Of a stretch of 64,000 nt of DNA, positions 5,913-47,536 are shown piece by piece. Position numbers and translations under genes: made by a program. A model generated the notes under the pieces. That model had not been told where the DNA came from. It did no database searches and saw only the letters and a list, made by a program, of their open reading frames with translations. Origin of the DNA: Pseudomonas sp. Leaf58 (GTDB taxonomy: Bacteria > Pseudomonadota > Gammaproteobacteria > Pseudomonadales > Pseudomonadaceae); the NCBI RefSeq assembly GCF_003627215.1, contig NZ_CP032677.1:2113501-2177500 (forward strand), in the 5' to 3' direction. Numbering within the stretch: position 1 is the first letter of the stretch; every line of letters starts with the position of its first letter.

Positions 5913-7034
5913 TCAGCTTGAAGCTTGTGGCTCAAAGGGAATGCTCTGCACCACCTCCAGCTCATACCCGGCCAGCCCCGCATATTTCAGCGGCGGGCCC
6001 AAATGACGCAGTTTGCCCACGCCCAGGTCCTGCAGAATCTGCGCCCCGGTGCCCACCTCGGAGTACACCTTCGACTGCCCGCGTTGATAGGGGCGAACTG
6101 GCTGGGTCAGCTGCGGCACACGTTCGAGCAAGGCCTGGGAGGATTCATGGTTGGCCAGGATCACCACCACACCGGTACCTTCCTCGGCCACCTTCTGCAG
6201 CGCCGCCCACAGCGTCCAGTTGGCCGGGCCGGCGTACTCGGCACCCACCAGGTCGCGCAGCGGGTCGATCACATGCACCCGCACCAGCGTCGGTTGCTCG
6301 CGGCGGATGTCGCCCATGACCATGGCCATGTGCACGCCACCCTCGATGCGGTCTTCATAGGTCACCAGGCGGAAGGTGCCATGCACGGTCGGCAGTTCGC
6401 GTTCGCCGATGCGCTTGATGGTTTGCTCGGTGCTCAGGCGATAGTGGATCAGGTCGGCGATGGTGCCGATCTTGATGCCGTGCTGGGCAGCGAATATTTC
6501 CAGGTCCGGGCGGCGGGCCATGGTGCCGTCGTCATTGAGCACTTCGACGATCACCGAGGCCGGGCTGAAGCCAGCCAGGCGCGCCAGGTCGCAACCTGCT
6601 TCGGTATGGCCGGCGCGGGTCAGCACGCCGCCTTCGCGGGCGCGCAGGGGGAAGATGTGCCCAGGTTGCACCAGGTCTTCGGGGCGGGCGTTGGCGGCCA
6701 TGGCGGCGGCCACGGTGCGCGCGCGGTCGGCGGCGGAAATGCCGGTGGTGACACCGCTGGCCGCTTCGATCGACACGGTGAAGGCGGTACTGAACACGCT
6801 GCCGTTGGCCGGTACCATCTGCTCCAAGCCCAGGCGTTGGCAGTGTTCGTCGGTCAGGGTCAGGCAGATCAGGCCGCGCGCTTCGCGGGCCATGAAGTTG
6901 ATGGCCTGGGCGTCGCAACGCTCGGCGGCAATCAGCAGGTCGCCTTCGTTTTCGCGGTCCTCGTCATCCACCAGCAGGACCATCTTGCCTTGCCGGTAGT
7001 CCTCGAGAAGTTCTTCGATGGTGTTGAAAGCCAT
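5913..7034 (-). CDS. ribBA: 3,4-dihydroxy-2-butanone-4-phosphate synthase with degenerate GTP cyclohydrolase II domain
   Basis: 373 residues. Residues 1-205 are a complete RibB domain (DDEDRENEGDL and the HTEAGCDLARLAG motif), converting ribulose 5-phosphate to the four-carbon riboflavin precursor. Residues about 210-373 follow the RibA fold, but the zinc-binding cysteines of GTP cyclohydrolase II (CLTGD and RCDCG type motifs) are absent; no cysteine occurs in that half. The protein is therefore probably only a DHBP synthase, as in many pseudomonad RibBA proteins. It lies apart from other rib genes, so it may be a secondary copy. Confidence 0.9.
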   Translation of the reverse strand: MAFNTIEELLEDYRQGKMVLLVDDEDRENEGDLLIAAERCDAQAINFMAREARGLICLTLTDEHCQRLGLEQMVPANGSVFSTAFTVSIEAASGVTTGISAADRARTVAAAMAANARPEDLVQPGHIFPLRAREGGVLTRAGHTEAGCDLARLAGFSPASVIVEVLNDDGTMARRPDLEIFAAQHGIKIGTIADLIHYRLSTEQTIKRIGERELPTVHGTFRLVTYEDRIEGGVHMAMVMGDIRREQPTLVRVHVIDPLRDLVGAEYAGPANWTLWAALQKVAEEGTGVVVILANHESSQALLERVPQLTQPVRPYQRGQSKVYSEVGTGAQILQDLGVGKLRHLGPPLKYAGLAGYELEVVQSIPFEPQASS

Positions 7035-7065
7035 GTTGCACGCTCACTGTGGTGGGATGATTATT

Positions 7066-7077
7066 ATGGTATACCAT
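7066..7077. promoter_or_regulatory. Perfect palindrome ATGGTATACCAT, probable operator
   Basis: A 12-bp perfect palindrome, extending with one mismatched pair to about 20 bp (TATTATGGTATACCATCATA), lies in the 78-bp divergent region between ribBA and the DUF1330 gene. TGGTATACCA-like palindromes are typical of GntR-family operators, but no gntR gene is in this window. Confidence 0.5.
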
Positions 7078-7112
7078 CATACACAAATATCGCCGTAGCA
7101 GGAGAGCAGCGC

Positions 7113-7406
7113 ATGAAGGCCTATTGGATCGCCCATGTGGACGTGACCGACCCCGAGCAATACCAGCAATACACCCAGCGCGCCCCGGCTGCGTTCAAGG
7201 CGTTTGGCGGCCGCTTCTTGGCCCGTGGCGGGCGCAGCGAGGCCATGGAAGGGCGGCCTACCCCTCAGCGTAGCGTGGTGATCGAGTTCGATTCGTACGA
7301 GCAGGCGCTGGCGTGTTACCGGTCCGCGCTGTACCAGGAGGCGTGCAGCCATCGCCAGGGCGCGGCGAAGGCTGAGGTGATCATTGTCGAAGGGTTCGAG
7401 GCTTGA
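7113..7406 (+). CDS. DUF1330 family protein
   Basis: 97 residues (KAYWIAHVDVTDPEQYQQY at the start), the normal length for DUF1330, a dimeric alpha/beta ferredoxin-like family of unknown function. The conserved pattern of a central GGRFLARGG and RSVVIEFDSYEQALACY is present. GGAG lies ahead of the ATG at 7113. It is divergent from ribBA, with the operator-like palindrome between them. Confidence 0.85.
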   Translation: MKAYWIAHVDVTDPEQYQQYTQRAPAAFKAFGGRFLARGGRSEAMEGRPTPQRSVVIEFDSYEQALACYRSALYQEACSHRQGAAKAEVIIVEGFEA

Positions 7407-42650: not shown

Positions 42651-43457
42651 TCAGATCCTGAAAAATGTCCTGTAGCAGCCTAATTGTTCACTGAGCATGT
42701 GGCTACCAGGGTGCACAGAATGCCCTGCTGCTTTCGCAGCGCGTAACAGGCGAGTGTCGACGGGTTGCATGATGATGTCTGCGACCAGGGCCCCCGCAGC
42801 CAGCGCGGCAAGGTCTACCGGAAGTGGATCCTCCTCGGCGAGACCTAACGGTGTTGCGTTGATAACGATATCGGCTAACCCAAGGTGTTGTGGCTGGGCA
42901 AGCTCGCAGCGGCTTGGCCAATGTTGGTTCAGCCTGGCGAGTAGTGATTGGGCTTTCACGGTGTCCGGTTCTTGTAGATACAAGACGTCTACCTCTGCCT
43001 GCAGCAAGGCCACAGCAATCGAACTACCTGCACCACCACCTCCGGCCAGTACCACCCGTTTCCCAGCCAGTTTGTACCCTTTGCGCTGCAGGCCCAGCGC
43101 AAACCCTACGCCATCGAAGTTGTCAGCTTCCCACACGCCTTGTTCGTTGCGGCGCATTGCATTGGTGCTGCCAGAGACCTGAACAGCAAGGCTGAGCTTA
43201 TCTGCAAAGTCACGAGCAGCGAACTTGTGCGGAATGGTGATCAGCATTCCCGAAAAATTCTCCATCGCTTGAAGGCCGCGTATAACCGTCGCGAGCTGCT
43301 CAGGCCTGGCATGCACCGCAATCATCACGGCATCCACGGCTTCATCAGCAAACACCTTGTTGAGTAGCTCGGGAGCCTTCACTTGCTTCACCGGGTCACC
43401 GATGACCGCAAAAATCCGGGTGTTGCCAGTAGGGCTGGGTATTAACAGCTGAGACAT
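42651..43457 (-). CDS. Shikimate/quinate dehydrogenase-like protein
   Basis: 268 residues of the AroE fold. The substrate motif LITIPHK carries the catalytic Lys; the usual NTDG motif reads NFDGVG (Thr replaced by Phe, Asp kept). The nucleotide site is GGGGAGSSIAVAL. The change near the substrate and the catabolic setting suggest a role other than aromatic amino-acid synthesis, such as oxidation of quinate, shikimate or an analogue. ATG 43457 follows GGAGAG. An IclR-type site lies 72 bp upstream. Confidence 0.85.
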   Translation of the reverse strand: MSQLLIPSPTGNTRIFAVIGDPVKQVKAPELLNKVFADEAVDAVMIAVHARPEQLATVIRGLQAMENFSGMLITIPHKFAARDFADKLSLAVQVSGSTNAMRRNEQGVWEADNFDGVGFALGLQRKGYKLAGKRVVLAGGGGAGSSIAVALLQAEVDVLYLQEPDTVKAQSLLARLNQHWPSRCELAQPQHLGLADIVINATPLGLAEEDPLPVDLAALAAGALVADIIMQPVDTRLLRAAKAAGHSVHPGSHMLSEQLGCYRTFFRI

Positions 43458-43528
43458 CGTTCTCTCTCCTTCGGTATCCCACGGCGCTGAGGCCAATCGG
43501 TTGCGTTAAAAACCTACCATATCGTAAA

Positions 43529-43633: not shown

Positions 43634-44308
43634 TCAGGCATGTATCAGTGAGAGTTCGCTGATGATGCAGATCGAACCATCGTCGGCGGCTGTCGCGTCG
43701 GTGTAGTCAACCTGGTTGTATACCCCGCCGTGGAACTCGAACACGCGCGAAGCCCAGGTGCTGTCGAACTGCAGGTTGCCAGAGCCGCCGGTCACCCCGT
43801 TGCAGCTGGCCGTTACGGTAACCAGGCCCTGGGCCGTGGCGTGAATGCTCACGTTGAACTTCGCCCCCAGGGGTACCCCCTTCAGTACCGTCGAGTTCAC
43901 TGGGTCGGCTTGGTTGTAGCTGCGGCGAAAACCCAGGGTGATGTCGCCCTTCTTCCAGAACACCTTCACCGGCGGGCTATCGTCGCCGCGCACGTGCATC
44001 TGCGCGATCACCACCTTCTGCGCGCTGTTGACCTTGGTCAGGGTCATTTCCTGGCGATTCCAATGGTTCAGGGCGCTGCCCAGTGCCCAGTATTGCGGTT
44101 CTGACCACTCGCAGCGGGTCCTGCGGGTGCTTTTGCTCGAAGCGCCTTTGGTCGGGGCGCAGAGCTGTACCGAACCGTCACCGAGCACCGCCACGTAGCT
44201 GGGGTAGCGGGCGATCGCTTCGGCACCGGTGAGTTCTGTCGCTACGAGGTTGGTCGAGGACACGGCTACTGGAACGGCAAGGGTCAGGTTGCGGATATCT
44301 ACGCTCAT
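43634..44308 (-). CDS. Polysaccharide lyase family 7 (alginate lyase-like) protein
   Basis: 224 residues, the size of a single PL7 jelly-roll domain. The three family motifs appear in variant form: RTRCEW for R-(S/T)-E-L-R, AQMHVRG for the Q-(I/V)-H motif, and FEFHGGVYNQ for YFKAGxYxQ. No signal peptide is present, which is unusual for a lyase acting on exopolysaccharide. Two copies of the TTAGC-N5-GCTAA operator lie 76-115 bp upstream, linking it to the S24 repressor 600 bp away. It may be a phage-type depolymerase released by lysis. Confidence 0.78.
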   Translation of the reverse strand: MSVDIRNLTLAVPVAVSSTNLVATELTGAEAIARYPSYVAVLGDGSVQLCAPTKGASSKSTRRTRCEWSEPQYWALGSALNHWNRQEMTLTKVNSAQKVVIAQMHVRGDDSPPVKVFWKKGDITLGFRRSYNQADPVNSTVLKGVPLGAKFNVSIHATAQGLVTVTASCNGVTGGSGNLQFDSTWASRVFEFHGGVYNQVDYTDATAADDGSICIISELSLIHA

Positions 44309-44383
44309 GGCGAACTCCTGAGTAAAAAACGGTGTGCGGCGGAAGGCCTTAGCGGCAGCGCAGTGGCCGCTGCCGGGGGAAAA

Positions 44384-44423
44384 TTAGCCTTGCGCTAAAT
44401 CCTAGTCAATAGCTTATGGCTAA
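44384..44423. promoter_or_regulatory. Two repressor operators ahead of the lyase gene
   Basis: TTAGC-CTTGC-GCTAA at 44384-44398 is a perfect 5+5 inverted repeat; ATAGC-TTATG-GCTAA at 44409-44423 has one mismatch. The same pattern occurs twice in the promoter region of the S24 repressor, so they are probably bound by that repressor. Confidence 0.75.
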
Positions 44424-44520
44424 ATATATTTCGCCGGGCGACAAATTACCTGCTGGCGAAAATTTTCCGCGGTCAGGGCTTTACGCTGGATTTGGCAGTG
44501 GGATAAGCTTTTGCAGAGCA

Positions 44521-44536
44521 CTGTACGAATATACAG
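44521..44536. promoter_or_regulatory. LexA (SOS) box ahead of the DUF1654 gene
   Basis: CTGTACGAATATACAG fits CTGT-N8-ACAG exactly, with CTGTA/TACAG arms. It ends 16 bp before the ATG at 44553, so bound LexA would block transcription. Confidence 0.82.
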
Positions 44537-44552
44537 CTATCAGGATGGAAAT

Positions 44553-44876
44553 ATGTCTAAGCACATGAAGTCGACCCCCCAGCAGCGTCAGGAGATGACT
44601 GCAGTAGAGCGTCTGAGCTTGCGGGTGTCATCGATGATCAATCACCCGCTGGCGCAAACACAGCGCTGGGTGACGGTCCATCGCCTGGATGCCGACGGTG
44701 ATAGGGAATGGGAGGAGGTGATCGGGTTGCTCGCCGAAACGCCCGAGTTGCAACTCGCCTTCAACGACGACGAAAGTGTAACGGTGCGCTGGGCGCGCTG
44801 CGCCGTGGAACAGCGCGACGACTTCATCGCCGAGCAGCGCAGCGAGCAGCAGGACGAGGAGGTGGCACCTTTCTGA
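44553..44876 (+). CDS. DUF1654 family protein, SOS-controlled
   Basis: 107 residues beginning MSKHMKST, with AGGA 9 bp ahead. The DUF1654 core is clear: TAVERLSLRVSSMINHPLAQ, then WEEVIGLLAE and the final VTVRWARC. The family is found in pseudomonads and their phages; function unknown. The overlapping LexA box makes it a DNA-damage-inducible gene. An acidic tail (EQQDEEV) closes it. Confidence 0.85.
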   Translation: MSKHMKSTPQQRQEMTAVERLSLRVSSMINHPLAQTQRWVTVHRLDADGDREWEEVIGLLAETPELQLAFNDDESVTVRWARCAVEQRDDFIAEQRSEQQDEEVAPF

Positions 44877-44881
44877 AGGTC

Positions 44882-44909
44882 AAAAAAAGCCCGCTGGCCT
44901 GGCGGGCTT
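44882..44909 (-). terminator. Rho-independent terminator of the S24 repressor gene
   Basis: The stem AAGCCCGC/GCGGGCTT around TGGCCTG, followed on the minus strand by seven T residues, lies directly past the repressor stop. It may also slow readthrough from the DUF1654 gene. Confidence 0.85.
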
Positions 44910-44913
44910 CGTT

Positions 44914-45735
44914 CTACACAAGGTGCGCATTCCATACCAGCAGCACCCTGGCCTGGATGTAGGTCTCTTCCCGGCGAATCATGCGGTCCTTGTGCCGCGA
45001 ATTGTCAGAAATCATCTCGAAATGGTCTTCGTCAGCGATCTGCAAGCGCTTGATGTAAATGTGGTCCCCCCAGGAGAAGAAGTAGATCCCATCGCCGACG
45101 AATTCGCGGATGCTGACGTCCACGATCAATGGGTCGCGGTGCTTGATGGTCGGCTCCATCGATTGGCCCCAGCCGGTCACCATCTTCAGGTGATGGTGCT
45201 CGCTGAACTCCACCCCCAGTTCGCGCAGGTGGCTGGGGCTGACGCGAACGTCTTGGAACATCTCTGGGTAATCGTGGGGGATCTGCCCGCCGCCCATGGC
45301 CGCCCTGACGTCGTAATGGGCGATCCACACTTCGTCACCCACCAGGCCCGGGCGCGTGAAGTCAGCCTTCACCAGCGCAGCATCTACCGGCTCCTCGGCG
45401 GCAGCCAGCAGCCGTTGCCGGGTTTGTTCGGAAAGGCCTCTGCCGCTTCTGGCGAGCATCTGCTTTACCAGGTCAGCCGCCGAAAGCTTGCTGTCGCCAA
45501 GCTCGACCGGCGGCGACTGGTCGCCCACCGCCAAGGCGTCGAACCACCCGCGCGGCAAGCCTTCGATACCCTCGATCCGGCGGGCCACGTCATCGCCCAG
45601 GTTCTTCGCCGTCTTGTCGGAGAGGATTTGGCTCAGGTGCGCAGGCGCCATTCCCCAGCGCTCTGCGCAGGATCCCTTTCTCTGGCTGCCGATCAACTTG
45701 ACCAGGTTGTGCTTGCGAATTTCGTAGATGTCCAT
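44914..45735 (-). CDS. Phage-type repressor: XRE helix-turn-helix plus S24 peptidase domain
   Basis: 273 residues. The helix-turn-helix is at about 12-55 (CAERWGMAPAHLSQILSDK). Residues 150-273 are an S24/LexA-like domain with the catalytic Ser in GWGQSMEPTI and Lys in IYIKRL. A typical Ala-Gly or Cys-Gly cleavage pair was not found; the linker reads RAAMGGGQ, so RecA-stimulated self-cleavage is uncertain. The start could be ATG 45747, which leaves an operator only 8 bp upstream; neither start has a clear ribosome site. Resembles PrtR/AlpR-type repressors in design. Confidence 0.85.
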   Translation of the reverse strand: MDIYEIRKHNLVKLIGSQRKGSCAERWGMAPAHLSQILSDKTAKNLGDDVARRIEGIEGLPRGWFDALAVGDQSPPVELGDSKLSAADLVKQMLARSGRGLSEQTRQRLLAAAEEPVDAALVKADFTRPGLVGDEVWIAHYDVRAAMGGGQIPHDYPEMFQDVRVSPSHLRELGVEFSEHHHLKMVTGWGQSMEPTIKHRDPLIVDVSIREFVGDGIYFFSWGDHIYIKRLQIADEDHFEMISDNSRHKDRMIRREETYIQARVLLVWNAHLV

Positions 45736-45754
45736 AGGGCGAAGCATGCCAGTG

Positions 45755-45820
45755 TTTAGCTTGCTGCTAAATGCGCGCAGAGCTAAATTGATTCTTGTGA
45801 TGTAATTAGCTGTAGGCTAA
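45755..45820. promoter_or_regulatory. Divergent promoter region with two repressor operators
   Basis: TTTAGC-TTGCT-GCTAAA at 45755-45771 (6+6 bp perfect) and TTAGC-TGTAG-GCTAA at 45806-45820 (5+5 perfect), with a lone GCTAAAT half site at 45782 between them. They lie between the repressor and the divergent small membrane-protein gene and match the copies ahead of the lyase. Confidence 0.8.
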
Positions 45821-45899
45821 ATTAAGCTGGCAAATAAGAAAAGCCACCAAGACATTTTTCCTTGGGGCAAATGGCAACCCCCTACGTATTGAGGTTTAC

Positions 45900-46214
45900 A
45901 TGGATCCGACTGACCTCGGCCCGGGTACCGTCACTTGGCTGGGCGGTACCGGCACTGTGGTGCTAGGTGCATTTCTGTGGCTGCGCAAGTGGTTGTCCAA
46001 GGATGCGGCCGACCGCGCGATGGACACTGCAGACATTGCTGTTGTGCGCCGCCTGACCGAACTGCTTGATATCGAGCGCAACGCCCGTAAAGAGGCGGAA
46101 GCCAAAGCTGAACAATTGGCCAAGGAGCGCAATGAGCTGGTGCTAACCGTAGGGCGGCTGCAAGGCAGGGTCGTAGCGCTGACGGGGCAACTGGCCCGTA
46201 CCCCGCAACGCTAA
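45900..46214 (+). CDS. Small membrane/coiled-coil protein, phage-type
   Basis: 104 residues. One hydrophobic segment at about 12-28 (VTWLGGTGTVVLGAFLWL) is followed by a basic stretch and a long charged helix (about 45-90) that should form a coiled coil. Such proteins are found in phage and pyocin clusters next to repressors and are sometimes called holin- or spanin-like; no specific family is recognised. It is transcribed away from the S24 repressor under the shared operator region. Confidence 0.7.
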   Translation: MDPTDLGPGTVTWLGGTGTVVLGAFLWLRKWLSKDAADRAMDTADIAVVRRLTELLDIERNARKEAEAKAEQLAKERNELVLTVGRLQGRVVALTGQLARTPQR

Positions 46215-46714: not shown

Positions 46715-47536
46715 ATGTCGACAATTCCCAGCAGAGACACCGTGCTGTGCATCTCCCTTGCCGGCCGACCCGGCACCTTCGGTGTGCGTTTTCACAACCA
46801 CCTGTACCAGCAACTGGGTTTGGACTTCTACTACAAGGCCATGCGCACCGATGACCTGCCGGCTGCAGTGGCGGGCATCCGCGCCTTGGGTATCCGCGGT
46901 TGCGGCGTGTCGATGCCGTACAAGGAAGCCTGCATGGCCCTGGTTGACGAGATCGACCCGTCGGCGGCGGCCATCGAGTCGGTCAATACCTTGGTCAATA
47001 CCAATGGCCACCTGAAGGCCTACAACACCGATTACCTGGCCGTGCGCCAATTGCTGGCGCAGCACCAGGTCGACCCGGCCACGGCGTTTGCCCTGCGTGG
47101 TAGTGGCGGCATGGCCAAGGCCGTGGCCTGTGCCTTGCGCGATGCTGGTTTCGCCGAAGGCATCATCGTCGCACGCAATGAGCAAGCAGGGCGGCAGTTG
47201 GCGGATGTGTGCGGCTATCGCTGGGTGCCCGAGCTGGGCGACCGATGCCCACCCATGCTGGTCAACGTGACGCCAATTGGCATGGCCGGTGGGCAGGAGG
47301 CTGAGCAGCTGGCGTTCTCCGAGAACGCCATCGCGGCGGCGGAGCGGGTATTCGATGTGGTGGCGATGCCGGCACTGACCCCCTTGATCCGCCGCGCGCA
47401 GGCGTTGGGCAAGCCGGTGATCACCGGGCTGGAGGTGATTGCCCTGCAGGCGCTGGAGCAGTTCGTGCTGTACACCGGGGTGCGACCGACGCGGGCGCAA
47501 GTAGAGGCGGCGGTGGCCTACGCCCGGGATATTTGA
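46715..47536 (+). CDS. Shikimate 5-dehydrogenase-like protein (AroE paralogue)
   Basis: 273 residues of the AroE fold. Catalytic Lys in GVSMPYKEA and Asp in AYNTDYLAV are kept. The nucleotide loop reads RGSGGMAKAVACAL, as in HI0607-like (SdhL/YdiB-like) paralogues rather than housekeeping AroE. It is a stand-alone gene with AGGGGCAGG ahead. Activity on shikimate is likely but weak in such homologues. It is unrelated in operator content to the IclR cluster gene at 42651. Confidence 0.87.
   Translation: MSTIPSRDTVLCISLAGRPGTFGVRFHNHLYQQLGLDFYYKAMRTDDLPAAVAGIRALGIRGCGVSMPYKEACMALVDEIDPSAAAIESVNTLVNTNGHLKAYNTDYLAVRQLLAQHQVDPATAFALRGSGGMAKAVACALRDAGFAEGIIVARNEQAGRQLADVCGYRWVPELGDRCPPMLVNVTPIGMAGGQEAEQLAFSENAIAAAERVFDVVAMPALTPLIRRAQALGKPVITGLEVIALQALEQFVLYTGVRPTRAQVEAAVAYARDI

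Follow-up and report, generated by a model that had tools for sequence, protein, structure and literature searches.

A four-gene locus of Pseudomonas sp. Leaf58, probably a reduced phage immunity region, joins a PL7 lyase gene to a predicted S24-repressor operator

Results

We analysed a 64-kb stretch of the Pseudomonas sp. Leaf58 genome (contig NZ_CP032677.1, positions 2,113,501 to 2,177,500), hereafter the window, in which four genes form one unit according to their open reading frames (ORFs) and their matches to Pfam and PHROG: a PL7 lyase, a DUF1654 protein, an S24 repressor and a holin-like protein (Table 1). A preliminary description of this region had proposed that the S24 repressor controls the lyase gene and a divergent gene for a small membrane protein through a repeated palindrome, TTAGC-N5-GCTAA. 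The palindrome is indeed found at all four proposed places, exactly at 44384, 45756 (previously given as 45755) and 45806, and with one mismatch at 44409. Allowing up to one mismatch, these are the only four sites in the window; shuffled windows contain 0.84 matches on average and 2 of 100 reach four, so that the number is moderately unusual within one window. The 6.34 Mb genome holds four exact matches, three of them at this locus. The fourth (C1:1483552, position 1501 of L001) is a lone copy ahead of an outer-membrane-barrel-like gene, as read by eye, and is probably there by chance.

The decisive sequence evidence for the palindromes is their conservation across orthologous loci. Forty places from the listing of a genus-wide lyase search were fetched, 12 of which (L049–L060) carry the locus. 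The lyase-proximal and the repressor-proximal sites are exact in 12/12 of them, and the ATAGC partner of the former, 25–26 bp off, has one mismatch in 11 and two in L059. The distal right site is exact in nine and has one mismatch in one of the 10 loci having the holin-like gene, and it is absent from L055 and L056, both without a detected holin-like gene. With the window included, all 13 loci share unchanged arms at the sites 44384 and 45756, while the spacers vary. Positions and conservation agree on two copies ahead of the lyase gene and two between the S24 and membrane-protein genes, and the locus comparison across Pseudomonas genomes, which had been proposed as a check, bears the palindrome out. 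By this conservation, the TTAGC-N5-GCTAA sites are predicted operators. Of the 40 exact copies present in 13 whole genomes, 36 fall within the locus, so that the regulon appears to be local; a wider regulon was considered and rejected for this reason.

Repressors that match the S24 protein from within its first nine residues have exact sites upstream in 52 of 53 cases (duplicates removed), nearly all near −72 and −23, versus 0 of 62 repressors with another N-terminal DNA-binding domain, counts that, like the others given here, come from related loci and sequences and are not independent events. Among GTDB contigs, an exact site lies just upstream in 37/37 loci whose repressor matches from residue 1 and in 0/10 with another N-terminus; two distant relatives (33–36%) also carry sites. 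Where the DNA-binding domain differs, the operator can apparently differ too: in L173 and L176, TAACC-N3-GGTTA occurs twice before the S24 gene and once, with one mismatch, before the lyase gene. Together with the orthologue conservation, the ratio of 52/53 to 0/62 upholds the proposal that the lyase and the membrane protein are tied to one S24 repressor through one operator, and sequence comparison makes regulation of the locus by this repressor well supported.

The repressor contains a Peptidase_S24 domain with a Ser196–Lys233 dyad, of which Ser is kept in 141/141 and Lys in 140/141 relatives; its conserved start is probably the ATG at 45735. A PDB sequence search with the protein gave no match at E 0.01. 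S24 repressors of the CI/LexA type are cleaved at Ala-Gly or Cys-Gly. Here, the expected cleavage point, placed from the sequence, is Met-Gly instead of the expected Ala-Gly in 139 of 141 relatives, and simple RecA-stimulated cleavage is thus not assured.

The preliminary description had counted three genes, overlooking the DUF1654 gene (PF07867) and the LexA-type box ahead of it; its idea of a damage-response design stands. The box has exact arms in all of the 13 orthologous loci but L060, which has one mismatch. As about one match (0.88) to CTGT-N8-ACAG per window is expected by chance, the DUF1654 family was tested (L089–L168, L315–L324). Among 103 distinct upstream sequences, the box is exact in 43 and deviates at one position in 58 (101 in total), reading CTGG-N8-ACAG, the commonest form in phages, in 56 of the 58; in 87 of the 101 the box lies 30–33 bp ahead of the start. 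Random 60-bp windows of viral loci contain an exact box in 0.1% and a one-mismatch box in 1.3% of cases. In 11 named phages, the box is exact in nine, has one mismatch in D14S and is missing in TC7, and the LKA5 record itself annotates predicted LexA sites ahead of DUF1654. In 77 of 80 loci from viral contigs, DUF1654 has a convergent S24 gene no more than 6 kb away. The LexA-type box would thus link the locus to the SOS response via LexA.

Of 80 distinct DUF1654 proteins close to the one studied here (L089–L168), 77 have PF as their last two residues, usually after acidic ones; of 11 more distant phage members, only three end in this way. This acidic stretch with a final PF resembles the C-terminal tip of the single-stranded DNA-binding protein (SSB), given as DDDIPF in an excerpt of PMC5872125. 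DUF1654 is described as of unknown function in the part of PMC13028781 consulted, and the term occurs in a single paper within a literature corpus of 5.39 million papers.

The locus occupies the same chromosomal site in 10 of the 12 orthologous loci, flanked by shikimate dehydrogenase-like, glyoxalase, MvaT-like and OprD genes; in L054 a small flanking ORF alone is visible and L059 stops at the contig end. The lyase and S24 ORFs are intact in 13/13 loci and the end of DUF1654 is unaltered in 12/13. At a dS near 0.7, the median dN/dS is 0.18 for the lyase, 0.21 for DUF1654, 0.085 for S24 and, over 11 loci, 0.16 for the holin-like gene; two flanking host genes give 0.07 and 0.12 (11 loci each). 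By these ratios, the locus is maintained by purifying selection. It is present in 14 of 398 sampled Pseudomonas genomes (repressor identity at least 86%) and in 12 of 49 GTDB repressor loci, a set that overlaps with the former. Named carriers include P. pudica, P. inefficax, P. hunanensis, P. juntendi, P. monteilii and strains labelled P. putida. In the window, shikimate dehydrogenase-like genes flank the locus on both sides (42651–43496 and 46715–47536); in orthologous loci with visible flanks, the right-hand one alone was found.

Relatives of three of the genes occur in viral contigs (DUF1654 405, S24 repressor 178, lyase 21), some of which (L089, L090, L094–L096) hold the host locus itself. 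In lambda-type immunity regions, the repressor gene lies between two operator sets in the order OL-cI-OR. By sequence, the palindromes here likewise fall into an OL set, ahead of the lyase and DUF1654 genes, and an OR set, between the repressor and holin-like genes. In four viral contigs (L174, L177, L179, L183), a lyase gene lies 433–1296 bp from an OL of identical three-site layout, on the pL side; the counterpart of the third left site is there TTAGC-N5-GCTAT, 107–108 bp from OL1. A polysaccharide lyase had been called an unexpected target of such a repressor; its place is instead accounted for by descent, as the phage lyase was already on the pL side of a matching OL. The gene divergent from the repressor encodes a short Cro-like protein, judged by position and look, in 7/7 prophages examined. 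In the host locus, this cro position is taken by the holin-like gene and no Cro-like gene lies beside the repressor. A prophage adjoining the locus was looked for in the IMG/VR contigs L169–L172, where reading the ORFs beyond the lyase by eye revealed no integrase. A small ORF of about 105 codons just past the lyase 3' end is common to L058, L170, L171 and L172 and not present in the window, and L171 carries umuD- and umuC-looking genes, a damage-response pair, 1.8–3.5 kb past the lyase.

The lyase matches PF08787 with 146.7 bits (cut-off 29.7). Its AlphaFold model (pLDDT 95.5) has PA1167 (1vav) as the best PDB match (TM 0.83, 23% identity), and residues R65, E67, Q103, H105 and Y197 are invariant in 47/47 sequences; R65, Q103, H105 and Y197 are presumably the catalytic Arg, Gln, His and Tyr of PL7. 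Position 69 is Ser, where 25 of 47 relatives have Lys. Domain, modelled β-jelly-roll fold and catalytic residues together identify the lyase as a PL7 member; its substrate may be a uronate-containing exopolysaccharide. The absence of a signal peptide, as previously stated, agrees with the Pfam domain starting at residue 3, which leaves no room ahead of it (no signal-peptide predictor was run). Release of the lyase would hence need lysis or an as yet unrecognised export route. Members of the family are also encoded by the 305-kb phage Psa21 (54%) and by nine P. putida phages of 200 kb (37–41%). Among 28 other loci, a DoxX-like gene lies near an S24-less lyase relative in eight (L062, L063, L064, L070, L071, L079, L084, L086), seven of which also have KaiC-like ATPase and response-regulator genes (names read by eye).

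The holin-like protein is 68–75% identical to products of phage genes. In the three phage regions viewed, these genes have recombination or antitermination genes on one side and terminase on the other, and each overlaps another small gene. The gene was not detected in L055, L056 and L331, which keep the rest of the locus, and is thus not indispensable. The idea of the membrane protein as an obligatory lysis partner of the lyase is therefore given up; being holin-like, the protein may still assist release. In a PADLOC search, the holin-like protein had the sole match, a weak one (0.0023), and an anti-phage defence system was rejected.

The sites at 44384 and 44409 overlap a candidate pL promoter and share their intergenic region with the DUF1654 gene, and the site at 45806 lies over the spacer of a candidate pR. 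The TTGAC of the pL −35 is invariant in 13/13 aligned loci; the −10 is weak. Rfam at gathering scores found no RNA element between 42500 and 47600, and the window contains no tRNA.

Table 1. Features of the locus, in window coordinates
Feature	Position	Strand	Description
PL7 (Alginate_lyase2) protein, pL-side gene	43634..44308	-	224 aa; PF08787 1.2e-42; phrog_31475 1e-121
Candidate pL promoter of lyase	44381..44409	-	-35 TTGACT 44409-44404, 17 bp, -10 TAATTT 44386-44381; read by eye
Operator OL1	44384..44398	.	TTAGC-N5-GCTAA, exact
Operator OL2	44409..44423	.	ATAGC-N5-GCTAA, 1 mismatch; 25 bp from OL1
Degenerate third left site	44492..44506	.	TTGGC-N5-GATAA, 2 mismatches; covers likely DUF1654 promoter; read by eye
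LexA-type box CTGTACGAATATACAG	44521..44536	.	Upstream of DUF1654; form CTGT-N8-ACAG
DUF1654 gene	44553..44876	+	107 aa; PF07867 2.8e-26; phrog_2707; acidic tail, terminal APF
S24 CI-type repressor	44914..45747	-	277 aa; PF00717 4.1e-18; phrog_4 repressor 5e-31
Operator OR, repressor-proximal	45756..45770	.	Exact
Degenerate middle right site	45772..45786	.	TGCGC-N5-GCTAA, 2 mismatches; right arm mostly conserved; read by eye
Candidate pR promoter of holin-like gene	45795..45823	+	-35 TTGTGA, 17 bp, -10 TAAATT; read by eye
Operator OR, distal	45806..45820	.	Exact
Holin-like small membrane/coiled-coil protein	45900..46214	+	104 aa; phrog_2658 'hol-like chemotaxis' 8e-36

Discussion

With these data in mind, we propose that the locus probably derives from the immunity region of a temperate, lambda-like Pseudomonas phage, of which four genes have been retained as a locus of the host. 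The control by one repressor that was first suggested is thereby retained, and the S24 module is recast as OL, cI and OR at a fixed chromosomal site. In an undamaged cell, the repressor would occupy OL and OR, silencing pL (lyase) and pR (holin-like protein) and tuning its own expression. DNA damage would remove LexA and permit synthesis of DUF1654, which may inactivate the repressor as an antirepressor, alone or alongside RecA-stimulated repressor cleavage. The lyase would then accumulate in the cytosol and be freed at cell lysis, with help from the holin-like protein or from prophages or tailocins induced at the same time, and could cut uronate-containing exopolysaccharide outside the cell. 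On the gene and operator arrangement, such a switch probably releases the lyase and the small membrane protein upon DNA damage; how DUF1654 acts, what the lyase cuts and how it leaves the cell are inferred steps.

Several observations weigh against this proposal. Besides the relatedness of the compared loci, a promoter consensus scan of the region returned a single promoter-like site, which is neither pL nor pR, where shuffles give 0.8. Of five loci whose repressor has a different DNA-binding domain or matches S24 weakly, three (L067, L180, L359) yielded nothing in a search for shared palindromes. The structure of DUF1654 was modelled with low confidence (pLDDT 59) and had no fold match at E 0.001, and the C-terminus of the protein is altered in L051, one of the 13 loci. 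The phages F116, LESphi3 and LKA5 have a boxed DUF1654 gene beside Ala-Gly repressors, as read by eye from the sequences. Lyase relatives without a recognised S24 gene occur in other contexts; L066 has a lyase gene (72%, coordinates 6542–7213) at a distance of about 3.8 kb from the same flanking genes, but neither S24 nor DUF1654, and no holin-like gene or operator. Finally, the holin-like gene went undetected in three loci.

The antirepressor role of DUF1654, suggested by analogy, we rate at somewhat below an even chance. Alternatively, RecA filaments could stimulate self-cleavage of the S24 protein, in the style of AlpR, PrtR or CI, and free pL and pR directly, with DUF1654 merely modulating the SOS response, for instance via its SSB-like tip. 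The near-universal dyad fits such a direct switch, the terminal PF of the close DUF1654 relatives resembles the SSB tip, and the three phages just named pair an Ala-Gly repressor with DUF1654; however, Met-Gly at the expected cleavage point and the scarcity of a terminal PF in the more distant phage proteins speak against it, and we regard this explanation as possible though doubtful. A different thought is that the repressor serves superinfection immunity, silencing incoming phages of the same operator, and that the lyase and holin-like genes are passengers. The repressor is indeed the most constrained of the four proteins, and its DNA-binding domain and operator recur in many temperate phages. 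Moreover, no second repressor well matched over the N-terminal domain was found in 13 carrier genomes, where the sole, weak match (G392) shows 34% over residues 11–71, and none is listed for the fourteenth (G289). Yet with 16–22 such repressors among the other 384 genomes, the expected co-occurrence is below one, so that this absence carries no weight. In addition, the lyase and the holin-like protein are likewise constrained and OL1 is exact in every orthologous locus, beyond what immunity needs. Hence, we judge superinfection immunity as the main purpose rather unlikely.

That the locus is a functionless prophage remnant being lost could be read from the few genes left, from the undetected holin-like genes, from the altered DUF1654 end and from the solitary lyase at the same flank in L066. 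However, the open lyase and S24 frames, the low dN/dS at substantial synonymous divergence, the invariant operator arms at two sites, the conserved LexA box and the constant flanks make this explanation very improbable. Only little more probable is that the lyase works inside the cell, or outside via an export route of its own, and that lysis is no part of the design. S24-less relatives near DoxX-like genes, mostly with a KaiC-like ATPase, and the retention of the lyase in loci without a detected holin-like gene are compatible with this, but other relatives belong to phages, whose infection or induction leads to lysis.

The immunity-region interpretation turns an unexplained lyase gene into a conserved and testable DNA-damage circuit with defined operators, and gives DUF1654 a regulatory context. 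What we consider new are the predicted LexA-type boxes across the DUF1654 family and the proposed domestication of an immunity circuit that has a lyase at pL; no title or abstract opening among the literature matches listed mentions this locus. Should DUF1654 prove to be an antirepressor, LexA would control the induction of a broad group of temperate Pseudomonas phages, in the manner of the Gifsy prophages. A lyase freed by lysing cells would tie DNA damage to the loosening of the biofilm matrix. As a bolder and tentative extension, DUF1654 might constitute a large family of LexA-controlled antirepressors, perhaps with an SSB-mimicking tail, by which many temperate phages of Pseudomonas are coupled to the SOS response, and the relatives of P. 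putida might have domesticated one such circuit, in which a holin-like gene replaced cro and a matrix-cutting lyase is released from dying, DNA-damaged cells.

Compared with known systems, the lyase shares its fold and active-site residues with PA1167 and other PL7 alginate lyases, but belongs to a phage-linked subfamily and has Ser69. The Gifsy prophages of Salmonella have LexA-controlled antirepressors, and their repressors are not cleaved, according to the portion of PMC3121763 consulted. The likeness lies in a small LexA-controlled gene and in a repressor that escapes the usual cleavage, the latter established for Gifsy in that portion and suspected here; for DUF1654, it rests on position and on control as predicted from sequence. 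With lambda-type immunity regions, the locus has in common a CI-type S24 repressor flanked by two operator sets (this repressor together with its operator occurs in many temperate Pseudomonas phages), and it differs in lacking an adjoining Cro-like gene, in the holin-like gene at pR and the lyase on the pL side, and in being a fixed host locus. AlpR-alpBCDE and PrtR of P. aeruginosa put host genes with a lysis-type output under damage control, as is proposed for this locus. They have other targets; here the circuit can be traced to a phage immunity region, and LexA would enter it via DUF1654. Descent from such a region appears to explain more of the locus than membership in the AlpR/PrtR group would.

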